Shown: positions 7,206 to 16,995 of the stretch, piece by piece
Layout: each line of letters starts with the position of its first letter
Position numbering within the stretch: position 1 is the first letter of the stretch
IMG/VR virus record: IMGVR_UViG_3300031787_000903
Coordinates: 1 to 22,557 of that record
Length of the DNA: 22,557 bases
Source: a virus
Strand: one strand, 5' to 3'
Position numbers and translations under genes: made by a program
The notes under the pieces: model-generated
Seen by the model: only the letters and a program-made list of their open reading frames with translations
The model's database searches: none
What the model was told of the DNA's origin: nothing

Positions 7206-7537
7206 GGCTCAAAAACCTCCTCGAACGACGCCGAGACCGTGTAAAAATCATGCCGGTCAATCGAGCGGGACCATTCGCGGCAAATGAACTTTTTACCGAC
7301 CGCCTCGTCGGGCGGAGTCCATTCAAACGCCTCAACCCCACCTCGAGCGTCGAGGAATGCGAGGATTGCATCCGCCTCGACCTTTGACCGATTCTGAAAC
7401 CGGAGGTTCCAGACGTCGGGGTTGCGGTTGATTCCCCAGGATTGGCGTTGCTCGTACCCATCGCCGAATTGAGCGGCGCGGACCCGCGGGCGCTTGCTAA
7501 CGGTTGCTCCGAAATCAGGGACGTAAACGAAAATCAC
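7202..7537 (-). CDS. M: Minor tail protein, lambda gpM family
   Basis: The 111-residue protein has the hallmark phage minor tail pattern: an N-terminal FVYVPDFGATVSKRPRVRAAQFGDGYEQR segment (seen here in two pieces), then WGINRNPDVWNLRF and the FLDARGGVEAFEWTPP motif, ending in a FEEVFEP tail. gpM homologues cap the tape measure at the distal tail during tip assembly. The start is GTG 7537, sharing GTGA with the tape measure stop, and GGAGG lies 9 nt upstream. Length matches lambda gpM (109 aa). The position between the tape measure and gpL supports the assignment. Confidence 0.95.
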   Translation of the reverse strand: MIFVYVPDFGATVSKRPRVRAAQFGDGYEQRQSWGINRNPDVWNLRFQNRSKVEADAILAFLDARGGVEAFEWTPPDEAVGKKFICREWSRSIDRHDFYTVSASFEEVFEP

Positions 7538-9684
7538 GCGAGGAGTCCTCCGGGACGTTTCTGCGAAATAAGCTCGCTCCGGACGGCCGCGGCAATCGCG
7601 CGCCCGAGCTCGGCGCCTTGGCGGTCGCCGGCGACTTGCTCCCCGCCCGACGTGTTGACGGTAACGCTCACGTTAAAGGTTTCCCCTGGGGCGCCTTGCA
7701 TGGCGACCGGGATCCGCTTTCCGTCCGGGAGCGGGACGTAAGCCTCGGGAGTCCGCCCCTCGCCAAACACGGCGAGTTGAGGGGAGCGCGCAATCCCGCC
7801 CGTCGAGTAGGTATTGAGCGGGAGCATCCCTTGCGCCGTCATGATCCCGCCCTTTGCAGCGTATGCAATGCCGGGAATCGCAATCGGTCCGCCGGCCGAG
7901 AGTCCCGTCCCGCCGCCCCCGAAGAGGCTAGAAATGCCTCCGAGGAGGGGAGCGATAATCCCGGACTTGATCGCGATTCGGGAAATATCCTTAATGAGCG
8001 AATTCGCGAGGTCGCGGAAACTGAGCTTACCCGTCGAGACGAAATCGACGAGCGCGTCCTCGGCGCCTTGGAATACGTTGGAAAGCGCGTTGTCCGTTTG
8101 CGCGGCGACGTTTTGAGCCTCTTGCAAATAGTCGTTAACGGCGCGCTTCACGCCGACGCCCGGGTCGCTCTCTTGCGCTTCGCGGAGGTCGATCAGCGAT
8201 TGCCTGAGCTCGCTCACGGCTTGCGCTTCTTTCAGGTATTCCGCCCGGCGCTCGGGGATGAGCTTGGCCGCTTCCGCGTTGGCTTTGGCATTTTCCTCAA
8301 TCGCGATTCGTTGCTTTTCGACCGCGGGGGTAAGAATGCCGAGGGTCTTTTCCTGGAGCGCATACTCCGCGCGGAGCTTTGACCCCTCCTCTTGGACTTT
8401 CCTAATCGCCGCTTCCGCGCGCTCGTATTTGCGTTCCTGGGATTCCTCGTCCGATCCGGAGAGGTTTCCGGCTTTCTTTGGCCGCTTCGCGGGAGCGGTC
8501 GAGGCCAGCGCGCGTTGAGCCGCTCCGTCCTCTCCGAAAAGAACTGAGTCCGAGAGCAATTTTTTAAATGCTTTCGTCGTGGCGCTGTTTTCGATCTCCT
8601 CGCCGGATTTCTTCCACTGGTCCGAGATCGATGCGAAGTTGAGTTTAAACCGCTCGGCGTTGCGGTTGTAGAATGTAGCGAAATCCCGGTCGATTTGCTC
8701 GAGAGCGTCAAAGTTTCCGGTAACGACGGCTCGAATCTTGGAGACGAGCATCGTAAAAACCATTGGAAAACCGTTGGCAAAAGCTTGAAAAATGTTCGCG
8801 CCCTGCCAAAGCAATCCGTTGATATCATTAAACGCCGTTTTAATCGCGATGGAGAAACCAAGGATTGCCGCGGTAGCCAGGCGGACCGTCTCGCCGATAA
8901 TCGTAAAGACGGGGGTAAACGCGCTCGACTCGCGGACGAATGCGAGCATAGCGTCGGCGATTTGCTTGAGCGTCGGGAGGAGGGTCGAGAGCCCCTCAAT
9001 CGCGAGATTCTTAAACGCGAATCCGATCTCGGAAATCCGGTCGTTAAACTCGTCGGCTTGCTCCCCAAACGAATCGCTAATCGCGAGCCCGTATTGCCGG
9101 ATAGCCTCGCTCCCCATATTGAGGAGCGGGATAATTTCCGCGCCGGACTTACCGAAGAGGCGGACCGCGAGCGCCGCCTTTTCCGGTCCGTCTTGCATTT
9201 CTTTGAAGCGGTCCGCGATTGCAAAGATTGCGGCGTCGGCTTTGATGGTATCGCCCGAGGAGTCGCGGAGGGAGATCCCGAGCGTCTTAAATGCGGAAGC
9301 GGCTTTCCCGTTGCCGGCGGTCGCCTCGCCGATATTAACGGCGAGTTTCTTAACCTTGACGGAGAGCGCGTCGACTCCGAGGTTAGTGAGCTCTGCCGCC
9401 CCGCGGAGGTTAGAAAGCGCCTGGGTGCCAATGCCGAGCGAGTCGGCCATGGTCTTTGTTTCGTCCGCGGCTTGCAGAATGCCGGAGGCAAAGCCCGCGA
9501 CTTGGCGAATCGCGAAAGCGCCGGCAAAGGCTTTGAGTCCGAAAGCGAGCTTACCGAATCGCGACTCGGTTTTATCGGCATTCGTCGAAAGCGTATTGAG
9601 GGAGCGCGAAAGAGCCGCGACCGCTTGCTCGCCGCTTACCTTGGCGGCAATCTCAAAAGTTACGCTCGAGGGGTTGAATGCCAT
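7534..9684 (-). CDS. H: Tail tape measure protein
   Basis: This 716-residue protein sets tail length and is probably ejected with the DNA. It begins with the usual FNPSSVTFEIAAKVSGEQAV opening, followed by long alpha-helical, coiled-coil-prone regions. Hydrophobic segments occur around residues 47-70 (GLKAFAGAFAIRQVAGFASG) and 265-285 (LATAAILGFSIAIKTAF). The C-terminal quarter has the lambda-family signature: ISRIAIKSGIIAPLLGGISS, Gly-rich FGGGGTGLSAGG, then the typical STGGIARSPQLAVFGEGRTP and EAYVPLPDGKRIPV. It follows the frameshift chaperone gene after a 3-nt gap. The length is short for a siphovirus; at roughly 1.5 angstrom per residue the tail would be about 100 nm (inference). Confidence 0.94.
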   Translation of the reverse strand: MAFNPSSVTFEIAAKVSGEQAVAALSRSLNTLSTNADKTESRFGKLAFGLKAFAGAFAIRQVAGFASGILQAADETKTMADSLGIGTQALSNLRGAAELTNLGVDALSVKVKKLAVNIGEATAGNGKAASAFKTLGISLRDSSGDTIKADAAIFAIADRFKEMQDGPEKAALAVRLFGKSGAEIIPLLNMGSEAIRQYGLAISDSFGEQADEFNDRISEIGFAFKNLAIEGLSTLLPTLKQIADAMLAFVRESSAFTPVFTIIGETVRLATAAILGFSIAIKTAFNDINGLLWQGANIFQAFANGFPMVFTMLVSKIRAVVTGNFDALEQIDRDFATFYNRNAERFKLNFASISDQWKKSGEEIENSATTKAFKKLLSDSVLFGEDGAAQRALASTAPAKRPKKAGNLSGSDEESQERKYERAEAAIRKVQEEGSKLRAEYALQEKTLGILTPAVEKQRIAIEENAKANAEAAKLIPERRAEYLKEAQAVSELRQSLIDLREAQESDPGVGVKRAVNDYLQEAQNVAAQTDNALSNVFQGAEDALVDFVSTGKLSFRDLANSLIKDISRIAIKSGIIAPLLGGISSLFGGGGTGLSAGGPIAIPGIAYAAKGGIMTAQGMLPLNTYSTGGIARSPQLAVFGEGRTPEAYVPLPDGKRIPVAMQGAPGETFNVSVTVNTSGGEQVAGDRQGAELGRAIAAAVRSELISQKRPGGLLA

Positions 9685-9687
9685 TCG

Positions 9688-10382
9688 TTAGTCTTTCTCC
9701 CGAAGCGTCCGCAAAGCCTCCGCCTCGAGGACTTGGATATCGGAGAATACGTCTAAGGGAGATGCTACCGCGTGAATTCGCAGCATAAAATCGACGGACT
9801 GATAATTTAGCCCGACAATATCGCCCGTCCCGGCGTAAACCCATTGGGTCGCGAGCGAGCAAAAGAGCCTAACCGCGTCCCAATTCTCCGGGAAAACCTC
9901 GTAAGCCGCGGACGCCTCTTGCCTCTCCAGTTGCTCGAGGAGCTCCGGCGGAGCGCCGAAAGCGGCGAGGTCCTCTTCGATCGAGCCTTTAGCGCCTGGT
10001 TTAGCGCGCCCCCCGGAGGCCCAAACCCGAGCGGCGCCCTCTAGTTTTTTCTTTTGGCGCCCGATGCGGATTCAAAGAAAGCCATAACGACCGCCGCGGC
10101 AACGAGCGGGATATCGAGGAGCGAATCCCGAGCCCCCTCGGAGTAGGGGACCTCGCTCCCGCCGTCGTCTTGGACGCCTTTCCATCCGGCCAGGACCTCG
10201 CGCGCGAGCTCGACGTCCGTGATTTGGGATTTCTCGATCAAGCCCCCGATCTCGAGCATTCGCGATTGAGAGAGGCGCCGGAATTCCGCGTCGAAAGTAT
10301 GCCGTTCATACTTGCCGCCGGAGACGGGGACCTCGACCTTGACCGGCCAGAAATAAGTTGGGGAATGTTTTAGGATAAACAT
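9688..10382 (-). CDS. G-T: Tail assembly chaperone G-T fusion made by -1 frameshift
   Basis: Reading gpG to the AAC codon at 10046-10044, then moving back one base, opens a frame of 118 further codons ending at TAA 9690-9688. The product has 231 residues. The added part resembles the DUF1799/T-like tail chaperone extension, with YEVFPENWDAVRLFCSLATQ, WVYAGTGDIVGLNYQSVDF and a C-terminal LEAEALRTLREKD helix. No good independent start precedes this segment. In lambda and most long-tailed phages the G-T form is a minor product that binds tube subunits while G binds the tape measure. The frame arrangement is read directly from sequence; use of the shift is inferred. Confidence 0.88.
10041..10382 (-). 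CDS. G: Tail assembly chaperone, gpG-like
   Basis: The 113-residue protein starts MFILKHSPTYFWPVKVEVPV and has the FDAEFRRLSQSRMLEI region usual in gpG-type tail chaperones, which coat the tape measure and recruit tail tube subunits. The C-terminal half contains the VLAGWKGVQDDGG and LLDIPLVAAAVVMAFFES segments common in this family. ATG 10382 is the only reasonable start because an in-frame TAG lies four codons upstream. The start sits inside a perfect 14-bp hairpin, and GGGG directly abuts it rather than lying at normal Shine-Dalgarno spacing. The last codons before TAG contain the slippery heptamer AAAAAAC, giving the longer G-T product. Confidence 0.9.
   Translation of the reverse strand: MFILKHSPTYFWPVKVEVPVSGGKYERHTFDAEFRRLSQSRMLEIGGLIEKSQITDVELAREVLAGWKGVQDDGGSEVPYSEGARDSLLDIPLVAAAVVMAFFESASGAKRKN
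10044..10050 (-). promoter_or_regulatory. Programmed -1 ribosomal frameshift site A AAA AAC
   Basis: The minus strand reads AGA AAA AAC TAG in the gpG frame, so the heptamer A AAA AAC sits immediately before the stop. This is a textbook X XXY YYZ slippery sequence. The following bases are GC-rich (GAGGGCGCCGCTCGGG, then TTTGGGCCTC), with a possible GAGG/CCTC stem and a GGCGCC that can pair with a downstream GGCGCT, so a stimulatory structure is plausible. The -1 frame stays open for 118 codons and ends just before the tape measure gene, the expected position. Confidence 0.87.
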
Positions 10383-10390
10383 TCCCCAAC
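10357..10390 (-). terminator. Perfect 14-bp inverted repeat over the gpG start codon
   Basis: The bases at 10357-10370 are an exact reverse complement of those at 10377-10390, with a 6-base spacer. As minus-strand RNA the 5' arm is GUUGGGGAAUGUUU, and its AUG is the gpG start codon. The 3' arm is followed by UUAUUUCU, a weak U-tract. It may act as a partial terminator lowering expression after the abundant tail tube gene, or as a translational lock on gpG, or both. The structure is directly visible; its function is inferred. Confidence 0.7.
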
Positions 10391-10425
10391 GCTAGCGAAT
10401 CAGGTTTTAGGCTTAAAACGATTTC

Positions 10426-11562
10426 TTAGAAGACGGTCAGGACGATTTCGTCGTTACCGCTCACGGGTTGCGCCGTGAAAGGAATCGAGAGGAAATGCAC
10501 CCCGTCGGTGTCCTGGTAGCTCGGGTTTTGAAGCGTGACGGATCCCGCTTCAATCTTGACCTTGTTACCGCCGACCGTGCCTTGGGTAATCGTCATGAGG
10601 CCCGGGGTTGCATTGCGAGCGAGCGTAAAGAAGTCTTTCGTCGCAATGGTCGGCGCCTCGATCAGAAAGGTCCCGGCCGGTTGGCGGTTCAGAATCAGGA
10701 CGTTTTCTTGACCGATCCGCGAGAGATATTGCACGTCGTTCGCGAGGTTCAAGCTCATGCTCTCGAGGACGCCGGCATACCCATGCAGCGAGAAGTTAGT
10801 CGTAAATTGGGTATTGGCGACTTGCGGGAGTTGGAATTTCGAAAAATCCGCGGTCGGTGCGGGCGTATCGGTCGGGGTCGAGTAGAGCCCGGTAAACGTA
10901 AACCGCATGACCGGAATTTGACGCGCGGAGATCGAAAACTCGACCGTCCCGCGAGCTCCGGCCAGGACGTGCCGGACCGAATCAATATGGAAATGCAGGG
11001 TCACGCTCTCGATTCCCTCGGAGACGGGCTTGTATTCAATCCGCTTGCCGACGACCGGGGTCCCGGTTGCGGGCGTGGCGGGCGTACCGACGACCGTAAA
11101 GTCGAAGGTGTTAGCCGTGACGCCGTAGACCTCAAACTCGCCGTTATACTCCGTTTCGCCAGCGCCCGAGATTTTTACGCGGTCGCCGTTCGAGAAACCG
11201 TGAGCGGCGAGGGTCGCGGTTGCGACTTGGCCGACGCGCTCGATATCAATTTCCTCGGTGATCGTGGTCGCCTCAAAGCCACAGGCGCGGAGGAGGCAAT
11301 CGTAACCGGGGAGCTTACCCGTTGCGCCCGAGCCGGCAATCTCGACCTCAAAGTCGATCGAAGCCGACGACGTCGCGAGGAGCGTTTCCGAGTTGCCGAG
11401 ATAGGGGCGGATCAGGTCCCGGGAGACCGTCTCAGCATTCAGAGGGGTAAGGTTCAAGTTCTTTACGAGGATTGCATCGGCCGAGCCCGCGGGGTTCGGG
11501 TCGACGCCGTAGCTGGTTTCGATTTTTGCGAGGACGGTCCGTTTACGAGTGAGCAAGGCCAT
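10426..11562 (-). CDS. Major tail tube protein with inserted domain
   Basis: The 378-residue protein starts MALLTRKRTVLAKIETSYGV, the opening of a widespread tail tube family, and continues with VKNLNLTPLNAETVSRDLIR, LGNSETLLATSSASIDFEVE and LPGYDCLLRACGF. It forms the tube around the tape measure. Residues about 104-175 look like an insertion: ATLAAHGFSNGDRVKISGAG and EFEVYGVTANTFDF resemble the FCCH-like beta domain found in some phage structural proteins. The tube fold resumes with VTLHFHIDSVRHVLAGARGT and a C-terminal sandwich. GGGGG overlaps the upstream stop 10 nt before the ATG. The location between the tail terminator candidate and gpG, before a hairpin, fits a highly expressed tail gene. 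Confidence 0.87.
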   Translation of the reverse strand: MALLTRKRTVLAKIETSYGVDPNPAGSADAILVKNLNLTPLNAETVSRDLIRPYLGNSETLLATSSASIDFEVEIAGSGATGKLPGYDCLLRACGFEATTITEEIDIERVGQVATATLAAHGFSNGDRVKISGAGETEYNGEFEVYGVTANTFDFTVVGTPATPATGTPVVGKRIEYKPVSEGIESVTLHFHIDSVRHVLAGARGTVEFSISARQIPVMRFTFTGLYSTPTDTPAPTADFSKFQLPQVANTQFTTNFSLHGYAGVLESMSLNLANDVQYLSRIGQENVLILNRQPAGTFLIEAPTIATKDFFTLARNATPGLMTITQGTVGGNKVKIEAGSVTLQNPSYQDTDGVHFLSIPFTAQPVSGNDEIVLTVF

Positions 11563-12271: not shown

Positions 12272-12310
12272 CTTAAAAGAGAGGGGACCGGAATCCGTCC
12301 CGGCCCCCTC
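12272..12310 (-). terminator. Rho-independent terminator after the capsid gene
   Basis: On the minus strand GAGGGGGCCGG (12310-12300) pairs with CCGGTCCCCTC (12291-12281) through an 8-base loop. The stem is 11 bp including one G-U pair, and TCTTTTAAG follows. It sits 16 bases after the capsid stop codon and 11 nt before the gpFII start. Strong stem plus U-rich tail is the usual intrinsic terminator layout, and would reduce transcription from the abundant capsid cistron into the connector and tail genes. Confidence 0.77.
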
Positions 12311-14244: not shown

Positions 14245-14266
14245 GAAAAAGCTCAGTTAGTTGAGC
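14245..14266 (-). terminator. Candidate terminator at the end of the beta-helix gene
   Basis: The minus strand reads GCTCA-ACTAAC-TGAGC followed by TTTTTC. The 5-bp stem overlaps the stop codon region of the preceding gene and is followed directly by a five-T run. The stem is short, so termination would be partial at best, but stem plus U-run orientation matches the transcription direction. Confidence 0.5.
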
Positions 14267-15468
14267 GCCTCGACGATGAAATTGAGCTCGGTTACTAGGA
14301 GGTTGTTGGCGTTTGTCGCGTTTGCGATAAAGCCCTCGATAAAGTCGTTGGTTGCGAGCTCGACGATCGCCTGGGAGTAGAAGTTTTCGTTTCGTGATGT
14401 TCCCGAGGTAGTGGCTTGCGATTCGCTTTCGGCGATCGTGGTTCCGTTCTTTGCAGCACGAACGAGAATAGTCGTGGTGTTTGTTGTAATGGCTTGTGCC
14501 GAACAAGAGAGAGTGACGCGAAATGACCGCGTGATTCCGCCAGTGTAAGTCAGTCTATTGTTGGTATGGGAGAATTTTTGATTGATCGCGCTTGGCGAGG
14601 TCACGCCCTCGATCTTTTCAAAAACCCCAGTAGTCGCGATTCCGTTCTGCAGTGTGTTGTTGAAGTAAAACGCTTGCCCGATCTCGGCCGAGTTCCCGAC
14701 TCCTTTCACGTTAGTGAAAAGGCTCCGGTTGTCATTAAAGGCAATGCCGGCCGTATAGGTTGCGCCGCCCGAGAAATTGACTGTATCGAGGATATATCCC
14801 TCGACCGGGATAGACGCCGACGTGCTGACGTTGATTGCGGTTGCCCCCCCGAAAGCGACGAAGCTCGAATACGTCACGCGGATTCGCCTGGTAACGATCA
14901 GGGTCGACGGGAAGTTGAGCGTCGTTTGACCGGCGACTCCCGAGAAAAGGCATTGGTTGAAACCGATTGTCCCAATCGTCCCGTTAAAGGTCATCCCCGA
15001 GCTATTCAGGAGCGCGCAATCGCTCATAATGAAATTGCTATAGTTCTGAATCGTCCCGACGCCGGAGCCGCCTCCGGTTGAATTGCAGTCGAGAAAGTTG
15101 ACCCCGAACCAATCAATAGCCGCCGTCGCGGTTCCGGCGCCGTTAAGGTCCAGCGCGGTCCCGTGAGTCAGCGTTACGTTTCGCATCGGGAGGCTATATT
15201 GCGAGGTCAGGAGCGCGGTACTCGCCGAGAGTCCGGTTGATTTTAGGATGCAGTTTTCGGAGGACCCGCCGATGATGACCGTATTTTGACCGGCGACGAG
15301 TCGATTTCCGGCGAGGTCAATCGTGCCCGTAATGAAATAAGTAAGGTTATCAGCGAGGGTAATCACGCCGGTGACGGGTTCCGGAAAATCCGCGAGCTTG
15401 TCGACGAAAAAGATCTTTTCCGACTCAAGCCATTTACTAAGTTTAGCGTATCCTTCCAGAAATCCCAT
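14257..15468 (-). CDS. Predicted beta-helix virion appendage protein
   Basis: I do not recognise a named family for this 403-residue protein. After a short helical opening (FLEGYAKLSKWLESEKIFF) it shows successive short strands typical of a right-handed beta-helix: LTYFITGTIDLAGNRLVAGQ, VIIGGSSENCILKSTG, RNVTLTHGTALDLNGAG, GTIQNYSNFIMSDCALLNSS, RIRVTYSSFVAFGGATAINV. The last 100 residues (RSFRVTLSCSAQAITTNTTT, ILVRAAKNGTTIAESES, NDFIEGFIANATNANNLLV) resemble a small jelly-roll or C1q/TNF-like trimer cap. No catalytic residues can be assigned, so adhesion or decoration is as likely as glycan cleavage. No Shine-Dalgarno precedes the ATG, which lies 11 nt after a GC-rich hairpin. Its place between portal and capsid suggests a head-associated appendage, but it could be a tail spike. 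Confidence 0.82.
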   Translation of the reverse strand: MGFLEGYAKLSKWLESEKIFFVDKLADFPEPVTGVITLADNLTYFITGTIDLAGNRLVAGQNTVIIGGSSENCILKSTGLSASTALLTSQYSLPMRNVTLTHGTALDLNGAGTATAAIDWFGVNFLDCNSTGGGSGVGTIQNYSNFIMSDCALLNSSGMTFNGTIGTIGFNQCLFSGVAGQTTLNFPSTLIVTRRIRVTYSSFVAFGGATAINVSTSASIPVEGYILDTVNFSGGATYTAGIAFNDNRSLFTNVKGVGNSAEIGQAFYFNNTLQNGIATTGVFEKIEGVTSPSAINQKFSHTNNRLTYTGGITRSFRVTLSCSAQAITTNTTTILVRAAKNGTTIAESESQATTSGTSRNENFYSQAIVELATNDFIEGFIANATNANNLLVTELNFIVEALN

Positions 15469-15479
15469 TCAGTGAGTTA

Positions 15480-15509
15480 GGGGAGCGGCAAGTTTCCCCG
15501 CCGCCCCCC
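15480..15509 (-). promoter_or_regulatory. GC-rich stem-loop before the beta-helix gene
   Basis: On the minus strand GGGGGGCGGC pairs with GCCGCTCCCC through a 10-base loop, a 10-bp stem with one G-U pair. It lies in the 54-base gap between two appendage genes and ends 11 nt before ATG 15468. No U-tract follows (TAACTCACTGA), so it is a weak terminator candidate. It may instead control translation or stabilise RNA ends. Confidence 0.6.
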
Positions 15510-15522
15510 CGTCCTTTCTCGG

Positions 15523-16995
15523 TTAGATAATGGCGCGCTTGCAGTAGGTCACGCGGATCGTATCGCCGACGCCGAGCTTTTCAGGGCTCGGGTTAACGAG
15601 CGAGCCGGCAAACACAAGGCGAGTCTTTCCGGCAACGGTGGTCAGGGTATAATCCCCATCCGATCCGTCGTAGAAATGCAGCGCCAGGCGGTCAACGAAA
15701 GCCGAGATCGACTCGGAAATCGCCGTATTCTGGAGCTCGACGTAACCCGCGGCGAGGATCCCCGCGTTCACGACGAATTTCTCTTTGACGAATTGGAGCG
15801 ACGCAAGTTCCAGCGCGTCGACCCGGCCGTCGAGAGCCGCCTCCGCCGCCTCCGCCCGGTTCTTTTCGGTCAGGACTTCTTGGTCGGTGTATGCCGCGGC
15901 GATCGTGACGGCTTCTTGAGCCGCCGCTTCGAGTTGCCCTTTATTGATCGCATCGGCCGGATTAACGCCGTCAGCGAGGCCGGTAATCTTCTTTGTTCCG
16001 ACCGCGATATCAGCGCCCGAGAAGGAAAACGACGCGCCCTCAATTTTAAAAAGGGCCGGGTTTTCGTTGCCTTGCTCGATCTCGACCTTGCTACTAGTAA
16101 CCTGAATCCAACCGAATTCGCCGGTAATCTCGTTCGTTGCCTGGAGCGTAGCCTCGCCGAGTCCAAGCGTGTGCTCTTGCGTCGAAAAGGTGTCAGCGGT
16201 AACGCTATTCGCCCCCTGAATGGAATTTTGACCCATCAGGAGGTTGCCCGTCATCGGGCGCGTTCCGTCGAGTTTCAGGAAAGTGAGATCCTCCGCCTCG
16301 AGAGCGGCGCTTTCCTGATCGATCAGAGCGGAAGCGGCGGCGACTGCGTCCGCTTCTGCCTGGTCCGCGTAAGCCTCAATCGCGGCTTGGCGGGCGGGCG
16401 TGTAGTAGAGGTTAGTCGAGCCGCCCTCGGGGACGAGGTTGGTCGAGTAGTCGCCGGATTGAGCCGTGACGACCCCGTTACGGCCGAAAACAGAATCTAC
16501 AGCGCCAGAGGTAATTTGGACGTAAGCCGAGCCGCTCCAGCGGTAGCATTTGCCCGAATCAATGGCGACGTAGATTTTGCCTTGCTCGCCCGTGACCGGG
16601 AATGCGGCAAGGTTCGCATACTCGAGCACGTCGTCGACGTAGGAGGGGAGGTATTGCTCCGCGATCAAGCCCGACCCGTTGAGGGGCGCGATTCCTCCGG
16701 GTTGCCCCTTGGTCGCCTCAAGCGCCGAGAGGTCGGAGGCGACTTGCGAGATTTCTCCGTCGAGGCTCGTAACTTCGGCGTCCAGTTGCGACTTGCGAAC
16801 GAGCCCGTCCGGGGTCGAGGCGTCGGAAGAGACTTCCGGGACGGACGAGAATTTAACGACGTCGTTACCGTCGACTTTGACGATTTCGATCTCGCTGAGT
16901 CCATCGGCGGACTTGCTCTTAAATGCCTGGTTATTCTCGAGGACGACTTTAGAGCCGTCGAGCGTCTCGATATACTTTGGTTGAATTAATGCCAT
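15523..16995 (-). CDS. Fibre-like structural protein (490 aa)
   Basis: This 490-residue protein looks like a trimeric phage fibre but lies in the head region. The N-terminus (MALIQPKYIETLDGSKVVLE) may be the attachment part. A first coiled coil spans about residues 70-95 (RKSQLDAEVTSLDGEISQVA). It is followed by PLNGSGLIAEQYLPSYVDDV, GKCYRWSGSAYVQIT, DSVFGRNGVVTAQSGDY and NLYYTPARQAAIEAYADQ, all frequent in tail fibres. A LDGTRPMTGNLLMGQNSIQG block and GTKKITGLADGVNPADAINK precede a second coiled coil near 365-400. The last 85 residues (KEKFVVNAGILAAGYVELQN ... LGVGDTIRVTYCKR) look related to the C-terminus of the next upstream gene product. GGGAG lies 10 nt before the ATG. An accessory virion fibre is the best guess. 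Confidence 0.82.
   Translation of the reverse strand: MALIQPKYIETLDGSKVVLENNQAFKSKSADGLSEIEIVKVDGNDVVKFSSVPEVSSDASTPDGLVRKSQLDAEVTSLDGEISQVASDLSALEATKGQPGGIAPLNGSGLIAEQYLPSYVDDVLEYANLAAFPVTGEQGKIYVAIDSGKCYRWSGSAYVQITSGAVDSVFGRNGVVTAQSGDYSTNLVPEGGSTNLYYTPARQAAIEAYADQAEADAVAAASALIDQESAALEAEDLTFLKLDGTRPMTGNLLMGQNSIQGANSVTADTFSTQEHTLGLGEATLQATNEITGEFGWIQVTSSKVEIEQGNENPALFKIEGASFSFSGADIAVGTKKITGLADGVNPADAINKGQLEAAAQEAVTIAAAYTDQEVLTEKNRAEAAEAALDGRVDALELASLQFVKEKFVVNAGILAAGYVELQNTAISESISAFVDRLALHFYDGSDGDYTLTTVAGKTRLVFAGSLVNPSPEKLGVGDTIRVTYCKRAII

Follow-up and report, generated by a model that had tools for sequence, protein, structure and literature searches.

Tail gene region and the hairpin at the gpG start

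The window is the whole stretch of 22,557 nt analysed here, IMG/VR record IMGVR_UViG_3300031787_000903, and represents a partial siphophage genome whose genes are encoded by the minus strand, to which all window coordinates below refer. As judged from PHROG families and position, transcription runs from the capsid gene through the head-tail connector genes to the major tail protein, gpG/T and the tape measure. The capsid gene occupies 14183-12327 and the major tail (tube) protein gene, encoding 378 aa, 10426..11562 (assigned by PHROG 290/584 matches and position), with its TAA stop codon at 10428-10426. Across a gap of 43 nt follows the gene of a gpG-like tail assembly chaperone of 113 aa (10041..10382; PHROG 569/8233/313 matches; 35-65% identity to relatives), which carries a slippery heptamer, A AAA AAC, at 10044..10050. 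A putative -1 shift would lead into the T reading frame, 118 codons at 9688..10044 that stop just short of the tail length tape measure protein gene (7534..9684; PHROG 8462 and others), and gpG ends in a strongly conserved GAKRKN, which agrees with such a frameshift.

A hairpin of 14 perfectly matched base pairs and a loop of 6 nt takes up the final 8 nt of the gap and the initial 26 nt of gpG; it reads GTTGGGGAATGTTT-ATCCTA-AAACATTCCCCAAC and then TTATTTCTGG in coding strand order. The element comprises (i) the 5' arm GTTGGGGAATGTTT at 10377..10390, in which GGGG is followed by a single A and then by the gpG ATG (10382-10380), (ii) the loop ATCCTA at 10371..10376, and (iii) the 3' arm AAACATTCCCCAAC at 10357..10370, encoding K5, H6, S7 and P8 of gpG and, with two bases, the beginning of T9. 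The earlier note had described exact reverse-complement arms with the AUG inside the 5' arm, and inspection of arms 10357-10370 and 10377-10390 bears this out; it had also placed GGGG directly against the AUG, where one A in fact intervenes, an addition that leaves intact its observation that normal ribosome-site spacing is missing. Its further statement that the 3' arm encodes gpG codons and is followed by T-rich sequence is likewise correct: the tail TTATTTCT at 10349..10356 contains 6 T in 8 positions and may serve as the weak U-tract of an intrinsic terminator. In RNA this tail, UUAUUUCU, is interrupted (6/8 U) and is itself coding sequence, with a TransTerm-like tail score of -4.07 that falls within the range of the terminators of relatives.

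The isolated stem has a predicted free energy of -20.7 kcal/mol, with a GC-rich base (6 GC pairs, 5 in the lower half of the stem) and a short loop. No second perfect 14-bp stem is present in the window when loops of 3-8 nt are considered, and dinucleotide shuffling of the complete window produced a stem of at least 14 bp in 7 of 2,853 rounds. The Rfam scan returned no family above the gathering score. The 34-mer of the hairpin has no other copy within the window, and elsewhere in IMG/VR the palindrome occurs on one other contig, which shares 5,258 bases with the window without a difference, so that it was rejected as a repeated or mobile element. This only second copy adds no variation and leaves no compensatory changes to count. 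Searches for closer relatives with the tube, tape measure and tail terminator proteins gave the identical contig together with distant or partial matches (tube matches L090 and L091; a tape-measure fragment, L140, at 94%, which stops short of gpG).

Between the tube stop and the stem extends a leader of 35 nt (10391..10425), which includes a small AU stem, GTTTTA-AGCC-TAAAAC, at 10404-10419. The motif CCTAAAAC is shared by this region and by the loop and 3' arm of the main hairpin, which makes a weak alternative pairing possible.

Hairpins at the tube/gpG and post-capsid junctions of relatives

About 180 usable junctions were gathered by searching with gpG and by aligning the relatives, and 55 were left once near-copies were removed. 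The distance between the tube stop and gpG is at least 35 nt at 22 of these and below 35 nt at the other 33. A hairpin reached p<0.02 against shuffles at 14/22 long-gap junctions (combined p ~1e-18) and at 0/33 short-gap junctions. By count, a compact GC-rich hairpin follows the tube stop at 16/22 long-gap junctions vs 4/31 control junctions (Fisher p 1.3e-5), where post-capsid junctions and frameshift regions were separated from the controls, a refinement defined after the first result had been seen, with which the p value should be read. The looser first control, in which post-capsid gaps and frameshift regions were still among the ordinary junctions, gave a much weaker enrichment (17/22 vs 48/96, p 0.03). 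All these junction counts are approximate, since the automatic stem rule misses the branched terminator of L060 and picks the wrong stem in L016.

Most stems of relatives start 17-25 nt past the tube stop, comprise 7-9 GC-rich pairs and leave 18-26 nt between their end and the gpG start, with a visible Shine-Dalgarno sequence following. T runs succeed the stems in L145 (TTTTTTCTT), L119 (TTCTTTTT), L037 (TTTTACT) and L060 (TTTCTTTTTT), and canonical ones also in L195 and L011. The stem sequences are unlike between lineages, and what recurs is therefore position and structure rather than sequence. In a supported clade (98/95) that has 17 members, the window among them, 13 carry the hairpin, and the element of the window conforms to the clade type in being compact and located between the tube stop and gpG in a long junction, but it runs past the ATG. 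Compared with the junction hairpins of L145, L119, L037, L011 and L013, it shares the location, the compact stem and the T-rich tail, whereas theirs end 18-26 nt before the start and leave the Shine-Dalgarno sequence and the AUG free. The window stem starts 35 nt past the tube stop and is 14 bp long; the hairpins of the relatives all stop before the gpG start is reached, and the window stem is the only one that covers the AUG.

Among these relatives, L012 displays a 226-nt gap with an apparent small extra reading frame between the post-tube hairpin and gpG (2058 and upstream). Two distant gpG relatives, L137 and L138, come from MAGs labelled Rhodobacteraceae and Phenylobacterium, and isolates carrying relatives infect Synechococcus, Rhodobacter and others.

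A companion hairpin, GAGGGGGCCGGGACGGATTCCGGTCCCCTC followed by TCTTTTAA, lies past the capsid gene at 12281..12310 and has equivalents in relatives: it was found in 22/24, window included, among those with a capsid stop found, and the refined control count places a hairpin at 11/12 post-capsid junctions. The window also contains a strong GC-rich hairpin with no T run at 15479-15510, between the genes at 15523-16995 and 14257-15468. The recurrence of unrelated hairpins, often with T runs, at the same junction and behind the capsid gene supports, at the level of sequence comparison, that half of the earlier proposal in which the element attenuates transcription between tube and gpG. Both the post-tube and the post-capsid hairpins probably act as attenuating terminators, each behind a gene for one of the two most abundant virion proteins.

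Accessibility of the gpG start and the histidine at residue 6

The assigned gpG start agrees with the conserved N-terminus of the family. A longer form from an upstream start is ruled out by an in-frame TAG four codons upstream (TAG CGT TGG GGA ATG), just as the earlier note had read it, and a start further inside would lose the conserved N-terminus. Translation running on past the tube stop was also considered, the frame being open for ~38 codons across the hairpin, but nothing speaks in its favour.

In the predicted fold the start codon (10380..10382) has a P(unpaired) of ~0.001. The computed cost of opening the start site amounts to 22.3 kcal/mol, vs a mean of 7.6 (sd 2.5, maximum 13.2) in the other representatives, which makes it the least accessible gpG start among 55 orthologues (z 5.9) and the most costly among 19 starts examined in the window phage. 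The computed pairing thus resembles that of the phage T4 e and soc transcripts, with the Shine-Dalgarno sequence and/or the AUG held in a stable helix.

The codon that pairs with the AUG in the stem is CAT, which encodes His6 of gpG. Residue 6 is Gln in 49/49 other aligned representatives and in 100/100 loci gathered by patterns not touching the N-terminus, and at no further column without variation among the other aligned representatives does the window differ. In addition, the Pro codon of the 3' arm is CCA, which makes up 8% of the codons for Pro, and ACT, across the end of the arm, accounts for 12% of Thr codons. On the sequence evidence, His6 and these codons would be explained either by selection for pairing or by a templated copying event, and the sole second copy, without a difference in 5,258 bases, favours neither account. 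The energetics and the unique Gln6-to-His change together support the predicted occlusion of the gpG AUG by the hairpin. The proposed lock on translation is not conserved, however, the pairing being found in no relative. Homologues that keep the protein without the pairing had been named in the earlier note as its refutation, and every relative is of this kind, so that the lock is refuted as a trait of the family.

A dependence of gpG on ribosomes arriving from the tube gene, also proposed there, is weakly supported at best. Tube ribosomes stop 35 nt short of the stem, and their stop codon is 43 nt away from the AUG, whereas a stop-to-start distance of <25 nt is described as optimal for coupling (PMC7538156), which makes such dependence less likely. 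Relatives that have no hairpin display short or overlapping stop/start arrangements, the spacing expected for coupling, which may be their alternative solution.

Candidate functions and known systems

The favoured reading, given an even chance, is that the hairpin is the attenuating, terminator-like stem-loop of the clade behind the tube gene, shifted so that one stem performs two jobs. Its more specific form, in which the same stem is both an attenuator of tube mRNA and a lock on gpG, with selection for pairing overriding an otherwise invariant residue, is advanced tentatively and is open to considerable doubt. Under either form, tube mRNA would be plentiful and only part of transcription would go on into G, T and the tape measure, while a displacement of the element by ~30 nt downstream relative to relatives would have created the double role. 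In the nascent RNA the stem, followed by UUAUUUCU, would act as a partial intrinsic terminator or as a 3'-end hairpin; in read-through RNA it would conceal the gpG AUG and slow initiation. Probably, although this is a guess, 30S subunits standing by on the open 35-nt leader would await transient opening of the stem, which ribosomes passing through the 3' arm might, as a further guess, then hold open. Termination, lowered initiation and an effect on the dose of G and GT are what we infer from this arrangement. A stem so strong on the AUG would nearly abolish initiation, which fits badly with an essential chaperone that phage lambda produces in excess over GT, at 30:1 (PMC5009743). Because the hairpin never overlaps the start in relatives, the putative dual role is seen in a single lineage.

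The shifted, two-job stem has to be weighed against accounts that assign a single function or none. The element might be a terminator or 3'-end stabiliser of tube mRNA only, its overlap with the gpG start being accidental and of little effect, for example if read-through RNA were translated co-transcriptionally ahead of stem closure; the relatives, whose hairpins lack the overlap, favour this, as the conserved property is the post-tube position, but the greater length of the window stem (14 vs 7-9 bp), the exact pairing of the AUG and the loss of an otherwise invariant residue argue the other way, and the account is considered unlikely while carrying appreciable weight. Conversely, sequestration of the AUG could set the gpG dose without real termination, as in T4 e, soc, 49 and I-TevI, where the Shine-Dalgarno sequence and/or AUG lies in a helix and structured transcripts yield ~100-fold less lysozyme (PMC3014915). 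That precedent and the very high opening cost suit a purely translational role, which is nevertheless improbable, given that the T-rich tail indicates an effect on transcription too, as do the terminator-like hairpins that relatives carry at this junction.

A different origin would be a recent template-switch event that perfected a near-palindrome and turned Gln6 into His, with no selected function and maybe slight harm. Perfect complementarity in one lineage, the 8-nt direct repeat CCTAAAAC in the leader and loop, and the lack of diverged relatives with the stem that would show its maintenance are all compatible with such an event; against it, the stem is located at the very junction where relatives retain hairpins, it has a T-rich tail behind it and its reading frame is intact, and we consider this origin quite improbable. 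A site acting at the DNA level, such as an operator or a mobile palindrome, would account for the perfect inverted repeat, but the single occurrence in the window, and in IMG/VR beyond the identical contig none, renders it very improbable indeed.

Several phage systems resemble parts of the two-job stem. The T-phi terminator of T7 is a partial terminator directly behind capsid gene 10, with genes 11 and 12 expressed by read-through only (PMC5592923). Like the presumed brakes of the window phage, it stands behind a major virion gene, but unlike the window hairpin it works on the phage's own polymerase. T-phi is not known to include the start codon of the next gene. In T4 mobE an intrinsic terminator with ~30% termination lies within the 5' end of the coding sequence, and in Aeh1 mobE an RNA structure sequesters the ribosome site (PMC2988022); these are two separate elements in two phages, concerning a homing endonuclease, whereas the window would employ one stem for both jobs on a virion assembly gene. 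The T4 transcripts share with the window a Shine-Dalgarno sequence and/or AUG buried in a helix, which lowers initiation in T4, but late promoters inside the structure bring relief in gene e and I-TevI, and none was identified in the window hairpin. In MS2 the AUGs of the coat-protein and replicase genes also lie in hairpins, and coat expression tracks hairpin free energy (PMC9894550). MS2 is an RNA phage, its coat hairpin is far weaker (~-8 kcal/mol) than the window stem, and its replicase start is made accessible when coat is translated and is repressed by the coat protein. In the part of the literature that was covered, a single stem performing both jobs on a tail chaperone was not found described.

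Tail assembly requires the tube protein in large excess over the tape measure and the chaperone products at a set ratio, and frameshifting is the well-known dosage control in tail assembly genes. The present comparison suggests a second, widespread dosage control, by which many uncultured siphophages would carry one terminator-like hairpin after the major tail gene and another after the capsid gene; in the window the junction hairpin has merged with the start codon of the next gene in a compact arrangement.
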